Below, one piece after another: positions 39,590 to 46,007 of a stretch of DNA of 64,000 nt. This stretch comes from Methanoregula sp. (GTDB taxonomy: Archaea; Halobacteriota; Methanomicrobia; Methanomicrobiales; Methanospirillaceae). The position numbers and the translations under genes were made by a program. The notes beneath the pieces are model-generated. The model searched no databases. It worked only from the letters and a program-made list of their open reading frames with translations, and was not told where the DNA came from. The stretch's first letter is position 1; each line of letters begins with the position of its first letter. The stretch is taken from contig NZ_JAJRCG010000009.1 of NCBI RefSeq assembly GCF_028679125.1, forward strand, positions 1-64,000, read 5' to 3'.

Positions 39590-39674
39590 GCGAGGGTAGC
39601 CAAGCCAGGTCAACGGCGCTAGGTTCAGGGCCTAGTCGTGCAGACGTTCATGGGTTCGAATCCCACCCCTCGCA
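39590..39674 (+). tRNA. tRNA-Leu (CAG anticodon)
   Basis: The acceptor stem GCGAGGG pairs with CCCTCGC. The anticodon stem CTAGG/CCTAG encloses TTCAGGG with anticodon CAG. A long variable arm (TCGTGCAGACGTTCATG region) marks a type II tRNA, and the T arm is GTGGG-type with TTCGAAT. The discriminator is A and CCA is not encoded. No intron. An AT-rich accessory region begins 11 bases after it. Confidence 0.93.
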
Positions 39675-39684
39675 TTCCTCCCGC

Positions 39685-39734
39685 GGGTTATAGGTATCCT
39701 GAAAAAATGCCACTGTTCTAAAATCGCTTTCACT
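39685..39734 (+). repeat. left copy of a 50-bp imperfect inverted repeat
   Basis: Begins GGGTTATAGGTATC and ends CTTTCACT. It matches the reverse complement of 44700-44749 at 45 of 50 positions with no gap. Differences are a CT/TC pair, two bases in GTTC/CTTG and one G/A. It lies just after tRNA-Leu and outside the accessory operon. Confidence 0.85.
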
Positions 39735-39779: not shown

Positions 39780-40781
39780 TTATCCCACTTCACGACAGGG
39801 AATCAACCGAATTAAGTTATGAATTGCCCCTTCGGATAAGATCGGCTGTCTGGAAGTAATGTATGTGCACAGCCGGGAGGGGTAGACTATATCAATATAC
39901 TTATCAATTCTCTGGCCATGCTGGGCACCATGCATCGAAACGAGAACGCTTTGGACTCTTGGCATTTTCTCAAAAAAATAATGGCCTTTCATGTAGTACC
40001 AGAGTGCATAACTCGCTCTTCGAATTTGATGTTTCAAGTCATCTGCTTTTATTCCTATTTCAGAGGTTTTCCATTTTTTCGTTTCGATTAAAAAAATACC
40101 TGTGGGGCCTATGACGATATGGTCAATTTGACAAGTTTTGATATGCTCATTTCTTTCTCTCCAGTAAATGTACTTAGGAAAAGAGAGATTTACATCATTC
40201 AGTACATGATATTCATCAGGCAATTGGGCAAGAATGTTGATTACAGATTCTTCTCCCATTGCTCCAATCACAAACGAAGAATTATTTGAGAGAAAATTCT
40301 GTGTATCTGTGATATTCTTACAAGTATTTTTTATGACTTGTGGTTTATGCGCAATGTGATGATTTTTTTGTGATTTGGTATTATGCAGGTTTTTTCGGAT
40401 ATGTTTAAAAGGGCTATTAATTCTGTAGTTTCTCAACGATACCTCAATCCAATATTGAATTCTATATTTAAATTTCAGGAAAATACCATCAGCAATCTCG
40501 GCGTTTATTTGTATTTCGGAGATATGTGCATCCACCTCAACAGTTCGATATGAAAGACCTTCCATAAGCCGGCTTTCAAGTTTTTCCTCTTCTTCACTTA
40601 ATGAAATGATGATCTCATCTTCTTGTTTTGAAACAGTAAGTTCTGTATCAGCAAGAATTTTTTCATAATTCTTGTGAAAATGCATAACTTCTTCGAATGT
40701 AGTGAGTCTTTTTCCTGATATCGGTTTAGTTCCATTCAGTAAATATCGAGTACTTCCGGAAATTCCATGAATCTTAGCCAT
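39780..40781 (-). CDS. NERD-domain protein
   Basis: A 333-residue protein with a nuclease-related domain (NERD) at about 171-290. The pattern IGAMGEESVINIL, then QIDHIVIGPTGIFLIETKKW, retains the acidic and Lys residues expected of a nuclease-like active site. The N-terminal 150 residues are charged and unlike any family I know. NERD proteins occur with helicases and defence genes, but activity is rarely proven. AT-rich codon use differs sharply from the flanks. Its start overlaps the TPR-RDD stop by several bases. It is last in the operon and 45 bases inside the left inverted repeat. Confidence 0.75.
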   Translation of the reverse strand: MAKIHGISGSTRYLLNGTKPISGKRLTTFEEVMHFHKNYEKILADTELTVSKQEDEIIISLSEEEEKLESRLMEGLSYRTVEVDAHISEIQINAEIADGIFLKFKYRIQYWIEVSLRNYRINSPFKHIRKNLHNTKSQKNHHIAHKPQVIKNTCKNITDTQNFLSNNSSFVIGAMGEESVINILAQLPDEYHVLNDVNLSFPKYIYWRERNEHIKTCQIDHIVIGPTGIFLIETKKWKTSEIGIKADDLKHQIRRASYALWYYMKGHYFFEKMPRVQSVLVSMHGAQHGQRIDKYIDIVYPSRLCTYITSRQPILSEGAIHNLIRLIPCREVG

Positions 40782-41562
40782 TTGTTAATTCTCCCTCGGC
40801 AATGGTATCATGTAAAACTCTCGTTTTTGCGATACTATCGTGAATTGTCTCCTTTTCAGGTCTATTATTCATTAAAAATGCACTAATAATATTGATGAAT
40901 GGGATGAATTTTATGAAATTCCTTATCAGTGAATAAGAAAAAGCAATCCGATTGCCATTTGGATCGGTTACATGAAGATTCATGATTTTTTTTCCAGGTG
41001 TTGCACTGAAATGTGAGCTTTCCAACCAAGCAAAAATCATCCAACCTCCAATAAAAATGTAGAATACCAAGAAAAATCCAAAAATTGCATTAATAATTGA
41101 ATTTACCCCAAATATTACGCGTATGAGCATTCCGGGTATGAACAAGATAAATAATAAAATCCACCAGCATAATGCATCAATGATCCATGCCTTAAAACGA
41201 GCATCGAGTCCGGCATAGTGCATCTCTTTTAGCGTAGTAGATTCCTTAATGGAGGTTGCATTTATCGATGAGGGGGATTGGGGTAATTCTTGAACATTGA
41301 CAACATTTAAAATTTTTTTAGTTTCAACAGACCCTTTTTCCTTTATTCTTGTTATTTGCGTTTTACATTTTTCCGCCTCTTCAAATAATCCCATCTTGAT
41401 TAAAAGGAATGCTATGTGTGTCCATGCATCAAGATAATCAGGACTCAATTCAGTGGCGTGAGTAAAACATCGGATAGCATTAGTGTAATCCCGCTGTGTT
41501 TCATATTCTCTTCCAGCTTGATCCCATGCAATAGGATCATTGATGTTTTTTGGATCGGTCAT
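40774..41562 (-). CDS. TPR-RDD membrane protein
   Basis: A 262-residue fusion. The first 80 residues hold one or two TPR units (AIRCFTHATELSPDYLDAWTHIAFLLIKMGLFEEAEKC). A linker follows, then an RDD domain (YAGLDARFKAWIIDALCWWILLFILF, with later GKKIMNLHVTDPNGNRI) spanning three or four membrane helices. RDD proteins are poorly understood and some transport ions. The TPR part would face the cytosol and could recruit the neighbouring NERD protein. It overlaps both neighbours by a few bases and shares their AT-rich composition. Confidence 0.75.
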   Translation of the reverse strand: MTDPKNINDPIAWDQAGREYETQRDYTNAIRCFTHATELSPDYLDAWTHIAFLLIKMGLFEEAEKCKTQITRIKEKGSVETKKILNVVNVQELPQSPSSINATSIKESTTLKEMHYAGLDARFKAWIIDALCWWILLFILFIPGMLIRVIFGVNSIINAIFGFFLVFYIFIGGWMIFAWLESSHFSATPGKKIMNLHVTDPNGNRIAFSYSLIRNFIKFIPFINIISAFLMNNRPEKETIHDSIAKTRVLHDTIAEGELTNG

Positions 41563-42221
41563 ATTTCAGAAACCTTTGGCTGTTGGTGTTTCACAATTCG
41601 GCCATTGTTGTATTCCCACCATTCATAGTTTGTACGTGATTCCTTGTTTGACATATCAATAAATTCTCTTTCGAATTCACTAATCCAATCACCATTTTCC
41701 CTCTGATTATCATCTCTAAAAACAATGCACCAATCTACTTTTTTTGCATAATTATGAGCATCAGCGTTAGTTATGAAAAAAGTGTTATGGGCTTTCCCAT
41801 AACTGATTGTATAAACTACAAAATGGGTATATCCTTCAAATTCCTCGTTTGCTTTTCTTCTCTTATGTGGTTCATGAAATTTTTCGGGATTTTGTGATGA
41901 GAAGTTCCATTCTTTCCGCACACCATAACGTCCGAGTCGATCATAGCCAAGGTCTAAATTGAAATTATTCAGATTTACTTCAAAAACCGCAACAGGTTCG
42001 TGGAATGAGGCTCGCTGTGCTTCTGTAAATGCTCTTTTTTTTGAACTAAATTCTTTGGTTGGGGGAGAGTCCCATCCACTCTCGCCCAAGTAAACCACAA
42101 CATACCCGATGCGGTTTTTGTAATATTGATTTTGTTTCTCTTCAATTGATTTGATGTCAGAATAATACTTTTTTTGACCATCTTTAAAATCGGAAAAAAA
42201 TTTTCTAATCCAATTGATCAT
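41559..42221 (-). CDS. uncharacterised protein of the accessory operon
   Basis: A 220-residue soluble protein I do not recognise. It is rich in aromatic and charged residues (VVVYLGESGWDSPPTKEF, WEYNNGRIV) and has no signal, membrane helix or obvious catalytic motif. I start at ATG 42221, with GGGAGA upstream, six codons inside the track ORF; this gives an ATGA overlap with the Nudix stop. The N-terminus is basic and amphipathic (MINWIRKFFSDFKDGQKK). Translational coupling on both sides argues it is a working part of the unit. Confidence 0.7.
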   Translation of the reverse strand: MINWIRKFFSDFKDGQKKYYSDIKSIEEKQNQYYKNRIGYVVVYLGESGWDSPPTKEFSSKKRAFTEAQRASFHEPVAVFEVNLNNFNLDLGYDRLGRYGVRKEWNFSSQNPEKFHEPHKRRKANEEFEGYTHFVVYTISYGKAHNTFFITNADAHNYAKKVDWCIVFRDDNQRENGDWISEFEREFIDMSNKESRTNYEWWEYNNGRIVKHQQPKVSEI

Positions 42222-42583
42222 GATTTCTCCCTGGTGCAATACATTTCTATAATTTTCTTCGTGTTATGCGATACGGGCAATGAGGAGCCTAAAGAATAAT
42301 AGCCAATTTGGGAGATCTCATGTCGTGGTTTCGGTATACCCTCTGCTTGTATTAAGAAAACTTTCGATTGATGAAAAGTAAAGAGATATTTTACTTCGTA
42401 TGCAATCAATCCGGTCTCTTCCCGTAACTCCCTAATCGCGGCTTCAATTCTTGATTCATTGTTTTTTGTCCCTCCCCCCGGAAGAAGAAATGGTGCAATG
42501 CCCTGACGCACAACAAGAATTCCCTTGGAAGTATCAACAATTGCAGTCCCCCTTCTCCGATCATAAGCTCCAGTCGTAATTAT
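42218..42583 (-). CDS. Nudix hydrolase, start codon unclear
   Basis: The Nudix box is intact: GGGTKNNESRIEAAIRELREETGL follows GX5EX7REUXEEXGU. The first GTG (42511) leaves out a needed strand; the open frame continues upstream as RRRGTAIVDTSKGILVVRQG, a normal Nudix N-terminus, back to an in-frame TGA at 42584-42586. No ATG, GTG or TTG lies there, but GGGGTGA directly precedes ATA-ATT codons. The gene either uses a non-canonical start, has lost its start, or holds a sequence error. I mark the full open frame. Nudix enzymes cleave nucleoside diphosphate-X bonds; the substrate is unknown. Confidence 0.65.
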   Translation of the reverse strand: MITTGAYDRRRGTAIVDTSKGILVVRQGIAPFLLPGGGTKNNESRIEAAIRELREETGLIAYEVKYLFTFHQSKVFLIQAEGIPKPRHEISQIGYYSLGSSLPVSHNTKKIIEMYCTREKS

Positions 42584-42626: not shown

Positions 42627-43400
42627 TCATTTTCTTAGTGGTTGGCTATCAATAGTCTGCATCTTCTGAATGGTATCCAAATCAAGAGCCAGGATTTGAT
42701 CGATGCTCACCGGTTTGTATCCCGTCAACTCTACACTTACATTGATGGTTTTATTCTCTCCATTGATGAACGGATATTTTCCCATACTGTTGTTGTGCTT
42801 GTGTCCGTGGATAATCCATTCAGACCAATCTTTTGGGATTCGATCAGGATCATGGGGATTATGCACAAGCAGAAAATCCCGGTTCCTGTAATTCAAAACG
42901 ACAGAATCATATGAATTGGGTGGGCGGGGCTCATCGTGAGATGGTCCGATAATAAATTGAATCGTTCCGTTGAGTTGAGCCAGCCAATAACTTATCGGGC
43001 GATGTTTCTTCCCCCACGCCATATCCCCTAAGAAAAAAACTGTTTCGTTATTCTTTATGATAGAGTTCCAGTTTTTTAATATTGTTTGATTCATCTGTTC
43101 GAGACTAGAAAAAGGTCGGTTACAATATTCAATGATATTCTTATGATCAAAATGAGTGTCCGAAACCAAGAAAAAAGAGGATTCCAGTTCAAATCTTGGA
43201 ATAGTTGCTTTGGTAAAAAATGATGGCGTGTCAGAATATTGTTTTGATAGATCTTCCGTTATGTGATATTGACGCGGATCCTTTGCTTCCTCACGGGTAA
43301 GCAAGCGTCTCTGGAAAAAATCATACTCTACGAGGATGCGACTGTTCTTGACAATAGTAATCCTGCTGATAAAAATACTCGGATGAATCGTAGTGTTCAT
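42627..43400 (-). CDS. calcineurin-like metallophosphoesterase
   Basis: A 257-residue metallophosphoesterase with the motifs SDTHFDHKN (residues 80-88), LGDMAW (124-129), GPSHDE (152-157) in place of the usual GNHD, a His in LLVHNPHD (180), and HGHKH (198-202). The metal set is nearly complete, but Asn is replaced in the third motif, and that could alter activity. About 75 residues precede the domain and have no known fold. The ATG lies 80 bases inside the preceding 2H gene, an unusually long overlap; a TTG further in is an alternative start. Confidence 0.8.
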   Translation of the reverse strand: MNTTIHPSIFISRITIVKNSRILVEYDFFQRRLLTREEAKDPRQYHITEDLSKQYSDTPSFFTKATIPRFELESSFFLVSDTHFDHKNIIEYCNRPFSSLEQMNQTILKNWNSIIKNNETVFFLGDMAWGKKHRPISYWLAQLNGTIQFIIGPSHDEPRPPNSYDSVVLNYRNRDFLLVHNPHDPDRIPKDWSEWIIHGHKHNNSMGKYPFINGENKTINVSVELTGYKPVSIDQILALDLDTIQKMQTIDSQPLRK

Positions 43401-44292
43401 TTTTCACATATTCCTGAATTTTTTTGAATTTTAGTTCTGGTACATTCAGAGTAAGCGTTGAATGAAATACAAACTCTTCCTTGCCATCGAAATCAAAGGG
43501 TTTCAATTTGCAGAATATTTTCAGACGCTGGGAGAGATCAAACCTGAATTGTTTAAGGTTTTCACAAGGATTGATATCAAAATAAATAACTCGTTTTGGC
43601 TCTTCAAATGCACTGAATCCTTTGATTTGAAATTTCATTACAGGAGTTTTTGAGCAGAGATCTGTGAAAACGGAAATTAGCTGTTTCTCATTTGAAGTAC
43701 TTAGTCCCCCAGCAAGAGAAATATGAGGTACAAATCGGTATTGCTTAATTCCAAATTCATTGACTATTTCGTCTTCAAGTCCTTTGATCTTAGTTTTTAA
43801 TCTCCTGTCAACAATTCGGATTTCTATTAGGTAACTATCATTGCCACTCTTTGGAAAATAGAAATCAGGAATATGTTTTTTGAAGATGCTAGGTTTTGTT
43901 GGATGGCTTTGATGTTTCTCCGGAGTTTTCTTTTTTGATAGTGGGGATACAGTACGAAAAATACTGGAGAGTATAAATATTCCCGTACCAGCAAGCAAGC
44001 AATATTCAAGACCATTTACAATCCCGATTAATTGTAAAAGAGTTCTACTCATCCAAAATGCGATAGTCGATATGATTACCCAATAGACAAAATCACCATC
44101 GATCCTGAAGGTATTATGCCGCGTAACGGTTCGGACACTCTTTGCGATAATTGTTATGCCAAGGCCAGATCCAAGTGTAAATATTATTATATTCGGGATA
44201 GCGGCCAATAACAGACCCGAAAGAAATACTGATAACGAATGGACAAGTATCCAGAATATAGTCCATTCCACGGATAGAGATCTCGCTCTCAT
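43321..44292 (-). CDS. membrane-anchored 2H phosphoesterase
   Basis: A 323-residue fusion. The N-terminal 120 residues hold three or four hydrophobic helices (ILVHSLSVFLSGLLLAAIPNII and later LEYCLLAGTGIFILSSIF). The C-terminal half is a 2H (LigT/cyclic phosphodiesterase-like) domain with both signature motifs: PHISLAGG (His190, Ser192) and FHSTLTL (His277, Thr279). Such enzymes act on 2',3'-cyclic phosphates, 2'-5' linkages or cyclic nucleotides. Tethering to the membrane is unusual. It is first in the leftward operon and AT-rich like the rest; the next gene starts within its end. Confidence 0.78.
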   Translation of the reverse strand: MRARSLSVEWTIFWILVHSLSVFLSGLLLAAIPNIIIFTLGSGLGITIIAKSVRTVTRHNTFRIDGDFVYWVIISTIAFWMSRTLLQLIGIVNGLEYCLLAGTGIFILSSIFRTVSPLSKKKTPEKHQSHPTKPSIFKKHIPDFYFPKSGNDSYLIEIRIVDRRLKTKIKGLEDEIVNEFGIKQYRFVPHISLAGGLSTSNEKQLISVFTDLCSKTPVMKFQIKGFSAFEEPKRVIYFDINPCENLKQFRFDLSQRLKIFCKLKPFDFDGKEEFVFHSTLTLNVPELKFKKIQEYVKNEHYDSSEYFYQQDYYCQEQSHPRRV

Positions 44293-44474: not shown

Positions 44475-44852
44475 TCATCCGACCTGATCAGCATCCAGAT
44501 CCCACTGATCCAGACGAGTCATCACCTGCTTTTGAAGGTAAAACTGCAGATCTCCGTCAGTTTGCTTTTTCAGATGATGCAACGTGCCTTTAGAGAATCC
44601 GCGTTTCTTCCACTCAACATAAGGGATGCTCAATATCTTTTTCCGGATATCATCCGCATCCTGACGGTTGATCGCATAATCCGGGTAGTATAGCAGAACA
44701 GTGAAAGTGATTTTACAAGAGTGGCATTTTTTCGAGATACCTATAACCCCGCATTCATCCCGCCGGGCCAAGTCTCTTCTGAAAATATTTTGGGTTTTAT
44801 GATACCGTTCAAGAATACCCGCACGACACAACGTACTGTGACAAGCATTCAA
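44475..44852 (-). pseudogene. possible Cas1 C-terminal fragment
   Basis: An ORF of 125 codons. Its second half (RKKILSIPYVEWKKRGFSKG, then TLHHLKK) resembles, from memory, the C-terminal tail of Cas1 from CRISPR adaptation modules of methanogens. The first half (a CxxC-like CHSCK stretch) does not look like Cas1 and includes the right inverted repeat. If correct, only about a fifth of Cas1 remains and the ORF is a scar. It has no strong ribosome site. It could instead be an unknown small protein. It lies 27 bases after the toxin gene. Confidence 0.35.
44700..44749 (-). repeat. right copy of the 50-bp imperfect inverted repeat
   Basis: On the minus strand it begins GGGTTATAGGTATC and ends CTTTCACT, matching the left copy at 39685-39734 at 45 of 50 positions. 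It lies inside the Cas1-like ORF and about 400 bases beyond the operon start. The pair encloses about 5 kb. Confidence 0.85.
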
Positions 44853-44879: not shown

Positions 44880-45155
44880 TCAGAAATCCCTGTATGCCTG
44901 TTTTCTGGACTCAATTTCAAGAACATGAATGATCAGGACATCATCATGAATTGAGAGCAGTGCTCGAACGTCTCTCCTTATCCGAAGAGAGTAGATCGGA
45001 TGGTTCGGATTTGACGCCATCATCTTTTTGATGAACCGGTAGGGATCTTCTCTGATAGCATGGATCAAACCAACAACATTCCGGGCAATCTCTTGCGGTA
45101 ATTTTTCCAGATCCCGGTCGGCAAGATGGGTGTACTTCACCCGGTACGGACTCAC
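44880..45155 (-). CDS. RelE/ParE-type toxin
   Basis: A 91-residue type II toxin of the RelE/ParE superfamily. Segments YRVKYTHLADRDLEKLPQEI and PIYSLRIRRDVRALLSIHDDVLIIHVLEIESRKQAYR fit the fold, including basic residues in the RRDVRAL strand and near the C-terminus. RelE members cleave mRNA on the ribosome; ParE members hit gyrase. The start is GTG 45155, overlapping the antitoxin stop by GTGA, the usual antitoxin-first arrangement. Confidence 0.82.
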   Translation of the reverse strand: MSPYRVKYTHLADRDLEKLPQEIARNVVGLIHAIREDPYRFIKKMMASNPNHPIYSLRIRRDVRALLSIHDDVLIIHVLEIESRKQAYRDF

Positions 45156-45388
45156 TCAACTTCGTATTTCTTCTTGATATCCTTTTCCGAAATCAGGTTC
45201 CCTTTTTTGATATCCTCAAGACCCTCTTCCAGACCTCTGATAGCATCCGCACTGAGTGGTTCATCATCAATGGAAAGATTCACCAGGCGCTCGATAACAT
45301 CGTTGTATGATTCCTTCGGGTTGCGCTTCAGGTTGTTCAACTGGGTTTTGAGATCTTCCCGGATATAAATTGAACTTGCGGCCTGCAT
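45152..45388 (-). CDS. antitoxin of the RelE-type pair
   Basis: A 78-residue protein with a short N-terminal strand and helix (SSIYIREDLKTQLNNLKRN and YNDVIERLVNLS) like ribbon-helix-helix/VapB-type antitoxins. An acidic C-terminal tail (LEEGLEDIKKGNLISEKDIKKKYEVE) would wrap the toxin. The pair probably autoregulates from the AT-containing promoter upstream. The start is the ATG at 45388. Confidence 0.78.
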   Translation of the reverse strand: MQAASSIYIREDLKTQLNNLKRNPKESYNDVIERLVNLSIDDEPLSADAIRGLEEGLEDIKKGNLISEKDIKKKYEVE

Positions 45389-46007
45389 ATTGACACCAAT
45401 CGGTAACTATAGGTATTAAACCAGATCCCTTATTTTCCACCCTGTACTTCTCTCATAATTCCACCATGAATATCAGTAGTGAACGCTACCTGCCAAAACC
45501 TGAGTTAATAGTTGCAACAGTATCAGCATCGCAACCGATCTCCGGCAAAAAAATTTCAACCACCCCCTCACCCCCTGCTCATTTTTTTTCACGCAGGGTC
45601 TGGTTGATCAGCAAACCTTCTCCCGCCGGCAAATCAAAAATTTTGTAGCATGTACATGCATTTGGTAGCATAATTACCCGATTGTAGCCTCATCAACTTA
45701 CACCTCATGATCGCGATTGAAAATTTTTCAGCAGAGTCTGCTTGAAAAAAAGCTCTTAATATCCCACAATCCGAACAACTTGTGGGAACCCCGTACGCTT
45801 CTGAAATGTCCTTCGTGAATAGTGGATAGTCAGCAACCCGTAACCCCTTCCCATCACCGGACACTTCGAAGAACCGTATCAAAAGGAACGGATTTGAGTT
45901 TCTTTAAAATCACCCTGCATCAGAGCACAGAACCTCTGACGAATTCCGCTCTCTTGTAACAGAAATCTGTTGTCAGAGAAAAATGGTTCACGAAAAAAAG
46001 GACGGGT
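45389..46007. other. 620-bp intergenic region with short hairpins
   Basis: The 82-codon ORF at 45634-45882 has no recognisable domain or ribosome site. GCATGTACATGC at 45648-45659 is a perfect 12-bp palindrome. TCCCACAA (45763-45770) and TTGTGGGA (45781-45788) make a clean 8-bp stem with a 10-base loop. CTCTGAC and GTCAGAG near 45933-45979 form another arm pair. No function can be assigned. Confidence 0.45.

Follow-up and report, generated by a model that had tools for sequence, protein, structure and literature searches.

Two adjoining open reading frames (ORFs) on the minus strand of the window, which is the whole 64,000-nucleotide stretch of Methanoregula sp. DNA that we analyzed (contig NZ_JAJRCG010000009.1, positions 1 to 64,000), were separated by a one-base frameshift that was either a real lesion or an assembly error. 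We consider it somewhat better than an even bet that the real gene runs from 44292 down to 42627 and comprises three modules (membrane, 2H, and calcineurin-like). The calcineurin-like ORF was taken to be the second half of the 2H gene because of the frame in which a conserved strand block is found in relatives and because fusion of the two enzyme domains is usual in relatives. The parts of the split gene were as follows.

43930-44292, minus strand: N-terminal membrane (TM) module, residues 1-121, with about four hydrophobic helices; identified by hydropathy and by similarity (37-43% identity) to the two copies of another Methanoregula genome (G001:C92)
43390-43840, minus strand: 2H phosphoesterase domain with H190 and H277; identified by PF13563, an own-genome match at 43387-43740, and the conserved histidines
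43371-43375, minus strand: T5 run (A5 on the plus strand) at which the frame changes; with one T less, the ORFs are joined
43303-43370, minus strand: final pair of beta strands of the 2H fold (ISRITIVKNSRILVEYDFFQRR), displaced into the reading frame of the calcineurin ORF; identified by alignment and a predicted hairpin
42627-43170, minus strand: calcineurin-like (phage-type) phosphoesterase domain, the C-terminal half of the split gene; identified by phrog_547, Foldseek (1xm7), and motifs

The upstream ORF, 43321-44292(-), had an ATG start and encoded 323 amino acids. The Pfam family PF13563 (2_5_RNA_ligase2) matched residues 185-301 with 48.7 bits (cut-off, 27; E 1.1e-12). The initial annotation described both H-x-S/T motifs of this ORF as intact, and we could confirm this: H190-I-S192 and H277-S-T279 had the expected spacing. 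That annotation named a lack of His conservation in homologues as grounds for rejecting the 2H assignment; both histidines were unchanged in all 12 of the aligned relatives, which belong to the same taxonomic order and in which the S/T positions of the two motifs were exclusively S or T. Judged from its sequence, the domain is a genuine member of the 2H phosphoesterase superfamily. The two motifs were the same as those of the PF13563 or ThpR-LigT-like RNA 2',3'-cyclic phosphodiesterases; the window ORF differed from these enzymes in its preceding membrane module, its fused phosphatase domain, and, as read, its missing last strands. The ThpR equivalog TIGR02258 scored 16.3 bits, which is under its cut-off of 65.7. 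Standalone 2H relatives in Methanoregula were 35-46% identical to the window 2H domain, no 2H-domain relatives were found among phages or in IMG/VR, and no relatives of the whole ORF were found in the genome contigs or IMG/VR. An AF2 model of the ORF that was made from the single sequence, with no alignment, had a pLDDT of 44.7, which was too low for a reading of the fold.

As read, this ORF did not contain a complete 2H core fold. It ended inside the 2H domain, without the last two conserved strands (RITIVKNSRILVEYDF), and the RITIVKNSRILVEYDF strand block was located in another frame at the N terminus of the adjoining calcineurin-like ORF, 42627-43400(-). This second ORF overlapped the first by 80 bases and began with a short lead followed by ISRITIVKNSRILVEYDFFQRR. 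In 30 of the 30 relatives that were compared, the strand block followed the second histidine motif and was in frame with both motifs, and the window was one frame off. When one T was deleted from the T5 run, an uninterrupted 554-residue TM-2H-calcineurin protein was obtained. In addition, when a profile of seven fused proteins was matched to window positions 42630-43370, the match began no earlier than profile position 196, at the strand block. The AlphaFold model of the downstream ORF (36-row alignment; mean pLDDT, 73.8; the alignments for folding did not include relatives from the genome search) had a beta hairpin formed by residues 11-17 and 21-26, within a region of lower confidence, and a hairpin is what the displaced terminus of a 2H fold should form. 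Unless the extra base was introduced during assembly, this copy is probably not active as a fusion, because its 2H domain as read is without its last two strands.

If the split is an error of assembly or sequencing, the TM-2H-calcineurin gene is intact in the organism itself. A one-base change in a homopolymer is consistent with such an error, as are the otherwise good conservation of both halves and the assembly of the window's genome, a draft of 33 contigs that was 94% complete. However, five T is not a long run for short-read data, and we regard an error as a possible but rather unlikely source of the split.

As for the membrane module, three or four N-terminal helices had been proposed to precede the H-x-S/T motifs, and Kyte-Doolittle hydropathy agreed: the first 115 residues were hydrophobic and contained about four helical segments. 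The AF2 model placed low-confidence helices at residues 8-30, 44-58, 66-88, and 94-114. Seven K/R residues were located within residues 116-145, directly past the last hydrophobic helix, and this basic stretch suggests that the enzyme domains of the TM-2H-calcineurin protein probably face the cytoplasm. A three-row profile of the membrane module was searched against 39 genus genomes, 394 phylum genomes, and IMG/VR. The module was found in 2 of the 39 genus genomes and 1 of the 394 phylum genomes, with no match in IMG/VR; among the genomes searched, it was limited to the window's genome and the Methanoregula MAG JAUSBW010000087 (G001). In G001, the module was joined straight to a calcineurin domain in a 335-amino-acid protein that had no 2H domain. 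Thus, a search for the TM-2H fusion in other genomes, which the initial annotation had recommended, recovered the membrane module but with calcineurin as its partner in place of 2H, and the TM-2H-calcineurin combination was seen solely in the window, in broken form. The TM-calcineurin gene of this MAG (L061:2695-3702) resembled the window gene in its membrane module (43%), its calcineurin type (47%), and the Nudix gene alongside it; it differed in that it lacked a 2H domain, the Nudix gene was upstream rather than downstream, and its other neighbors were LemA-like and CAP genes. The membrane module occurred a second time in G001:C92, in truncated form (L045:13648-14127), upstream of the LemA-Nudix-TM-calcineurin genes.

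The calcineurin-like domain was matched by phrog_547 with an E value of 1.5e-39, and a Foldseek search with the model of the calcineurin ORF yielded 1xm7 from Aquifex (E 1.8e-9), with weaker matches to Vps29, the archaeal phosphodiesterase 1s3l, and LpxH. The metal-ligand motifs DxH, GD, H, and GHxH were retained, and GNHD was changed to GPSHD. Because the metal-site Asn is thus replaced by Ser, with an inserted Pro, the activity of the domain appears uncertain. The 43 IMG/VR members of phrog_547 that were examined differed from the window gene in being standalone proteins without 2H, and their GNHD is GPSHD in the window. A standalone calcineurin protein in G053 (L048:9063-9668), which has GSHDD instead of GNHD, was the closest kin of the window's calcineurin domain, and the two may possibly form a subfamily with an altered metal site.

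Proteins that combine 2H and calcineurin domains occur widely in Methanoregula and in archaea related to it. A calcineurin match was listed for 89 genomes; in 82 of these, the frame that encoded the domain was at least 415 amino acids long, and both 2H motifs were found by pattern in 15 of 16 such ORF records examined, some of which were repeat copies of one gene. In 32 of the 394 phylum genomes, the seven-protein fused profile gave an unbroken match spanning the two domains, at about 33 places in all. No description of a 2H-calcineurin fusion was found in the literature searched. The fusions had the same domain order as the window gene, and the calcineurin part of the window gene was 53-55% identical to three of them (L044, L046, and L047), but the fusions lacked a membrane module and were unbroken. 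The genes next to the common fusion (HAD, MBL-rhodanese, arginine decarboxylase, and MFS) gave no functional clue. The window 2H domain was 41-46% identical to standalone 2H proteins versus about 35% to fused ones, and the window calcineurin domain was nearest to the fused type and L048. Since the 2H domain is nearer the standalone type and the calcineurin domain nearer the fused type, the window gene looks like a mosaic of the two.

In two genomes (G033 and G027), the 2H and calcineurin genes were separate but adjacent, and the strand block remained with the 2H ORF. These unfused pairs bear on the idea that the window gene makes two polypeptides on purpose, either because translation starts anew at the ATG at 43400 or by programmed frameshifting, and that the products reassemble via the displaced strands. 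The separate genes fit this idea, as do this in-frame ATG, which precedes the displaced strands, and the predicted hairpin, but the strands stay with the 2H ORF in G033 and G027 and no +1 programmed-frameshift signal was recognized at the site by eye. We therefore judged deliberate synthesis of two polypeptides to be highly improbable, and a single gene split by one base remained the preferred reading. The G027 pair was located in a small integrative element (L050:836-4578; G027:C185), in which a tRNA-Leu (GAG) gene, an integrase gene, and an HNH-like gene were followed by the neighboring unfused 2H and calcineurin genes.

The split gene was found in an AT-rich island of about 36-40% GC at approximately 39.7 to 46 kb, across which the values ranged from 34% to 44%, versus about 55% in the surrounding DNA. 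The gene block, which contained the NERD, TPR-RDD, unknown-family, and Nudix genes and the split gene, was flanked by a 50-nt inverted repeat with 90% complementary arms, and these were the only two copies in the genome. The remaining features in and beside the island were as follows.

39590-39674, plus strand: tRNA-Leu (CAG), left border of the island
39685-39734, plus strand: left arm of the inverted repeat
39780-40781, minus strand: NERD-domain protein (PF08378, 52.6 bits)
40774-41562, minus strand: TPR-RDD membrane protein (PF06271, 69.9 bits)
41559-42239, minus strand: gene of an unknown family, probable true start at ATG 42221
42218-42580, minus strand: Nudix hydrolase gene (PF00293, 44.3 bits), probable ATT start at 42578-42580
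44475-44735, minus strand: 3' remnant of cas1, 71-76% identical to the C terminus of Cas1 in G033 and G013
44700-44749, minus strand: right arm of the inverted repeat

No direct repeat of the tRNA-Leu end was found at the island, no integrase was recognized among the island ORFs scanned, and the tRNA was the only Rfam RNA in the island. Integrases were present near the counterparts in G001 and G027, and the 2H and calcineurin genes of G027 were also located beside a tRNA-Leu gene. The best reading of these data was that the split gene belongs to the accessory cargo of this AT-rich island at tRNA-Leu and has the Nudix gene as its neighbor. The gene at 41559-42239(-) had no match in Pfam, NCBIfam, PHROG, or PADLOC and no relative in the 38 other genus genomes. 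On the right side of the island, 44880-45389(-) was likely to encode a ParD-like antitoxin (approximately 45155-45389) and a ParE toxin (44880-45155).

The initial annotation listed Nudix and calcineurin-like partners for the 2H protein. The Nudix partner held up, and a Nudix gene was also found beside the TM-calcineurin gene of G001; the supposed calcineurin partner turned out to be the C-terminal half of the split gene itself. The window Nudix protein was 68.7% identical to that of the adjoining Nudix gene in G001, where LemA-like and CAP genes flanked the Nudix/TM-calcineurin pair and a phage-type integrase was nearby. Thus, a Nudix gene was next to a TM-bearing gene in two genomes, with the gene order swapped. 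Most Nudix relatives elsewhere had no adjoining calcineurin gene. When the start region was read directly, the window Nudix frame had no ATG, GTG, or TTG at the expected start and had an ATT after a GGGGTGA stretch. Its start was therefore either a rare ATT, probably the one at 42578-42580, or a lost start codon.

The state of these neighbors is relevant to whether the split gene is a decaying pseudogene, that is, cargo of a mobile island that has lost its frame, has no present function, and lies beside an ATG-less Nudix gene and a truncated cas1. Such decay would account for a frameshift that disrupts the 2H core, for a Nudix frame in which only ATT precedes the truncated start, and for the cas1 remnant, which was 71% identical to the C-terminal end of a 413-amino-acid Cas1 and had no upstream cas1 part that could be recognized; the second membrane-module copy in G001 was likewise a truncated fragment. 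However, the frameshift was a single lesion in 1.67 kb, both halves kept their catalytic residues except for one Asn, and ATT is usable as a rare start. Moreover, GPSHD resembles the GSHDD of the nearest relative, L048, and hence is not obvious decay. On balance, we place decay a little short of an even chance, and the sole known TM-2H-calcineurin copy may be a pseudogene.

With regard to function, the best reading of the split gene was that of an accessory, membrane-held enzyme that would process cyclic-phosphate or nucleotide ends in two steps, with the substrate and the order of the steps being inferred. The membrane module would hold the enzyme at the cytoplasmic face, given the proposed topology. 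The 2H site would produce a phosphomonoester from a 2',3'-cyclic phosphate (on an RNA end, a cyclic nucleotide, or ADP-ribose>P) in a metal-free reaction, and the calcineurin domain would next remove or further hydrolyze the phosphate left by the 2H step, so that the fused enzyme would carry out two consecutive steps in one chain. The Nudix enzyme would hydrolyze a related nucleoside-diphosphate product. Because the window's genome contained no KptA gene, the ADP-ribose route would be without a source here.

2H enzymes open a 2',3'-cyclic phosphate to a 2'-phosphate, and such ends, or ADPr>P, have been proposed as substrates of 2H, calcineurin-like, and Nudix enzymes (PMC9503650). The phage RNA-repair or ADP-ribose cassettes for which this was proposed (PMC9503650) share these three enzyme types with the window; in the window, the domains are fused and membrane-anchored, and no RNA ligase, KptA, or sirtuin was recognized among the island ORFs scanned. 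Vertebrate CNPase is a membrane-linked 2H enzyme (PMC3290555), and in STS/UBASH3 an esterase domain classed as 2H is joined to a phosphatase domain (PMC10252698). These proteins are eukaryotic, have a lipid anchor or none, and have another phosphatase fold, so they serve as analogies only.

The initial annotation had read the membrane tethering and the partner genes as a hint of nucleotide-signal turnover, and this proposal was not supported. An enzyme that is tethered to the membrane and breaks down a cyclic-nucleotide or 2'-5' oligonucleotide signal, in regulation of defense or in counter-defense, would suit the mobile-island setting and the Nudix neighbor, and a role in countering the nucleotide signaling of hosts has been predicted for phage and plasmid 2H enzymes (PMC5512222). 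However, no signal synthase, signal receptor, or known defense gene was recognized among the island ORFs tested, and PADLOC matched neither the 2H nor the calcineurin ORF and gave only weak matches for the Nudix and RDD neighbors. Standalone 2H proteins and 2H-calcineurin fusions are, moreover, common in the order without such a context, and 2H enzymes use RNA 2',3'-cyclic phosphate ends as readily as nucleotide signals. For these reasons, we considered signal destruction very unlikely, and two-step processing of cyclic-phosphate or nucleotide ends remained the preferred function. A broader proposal, which we consider quite unlikely, is that of a mobile archaeal module in which a four-helix anchor is swapped among calcineurin proteins with or without 2H, together with Nudix, and whose task at the membrane would be the processing of cyclic-phosphate ends or nucleotide signals in an undescribed conflict or RNA-damage response.

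The window also carries a caution: two ORFs that look like a pair of genes can be halves of one gene that a single base has split. The presence of a 2H domain and a second phosphoesterase in one chain suggests two-step processing of cyclic phosphates, and the membrane-held, Nudix-linked, island-borne form described here would put the processing of RNA ends or nucleotides at the membrane.
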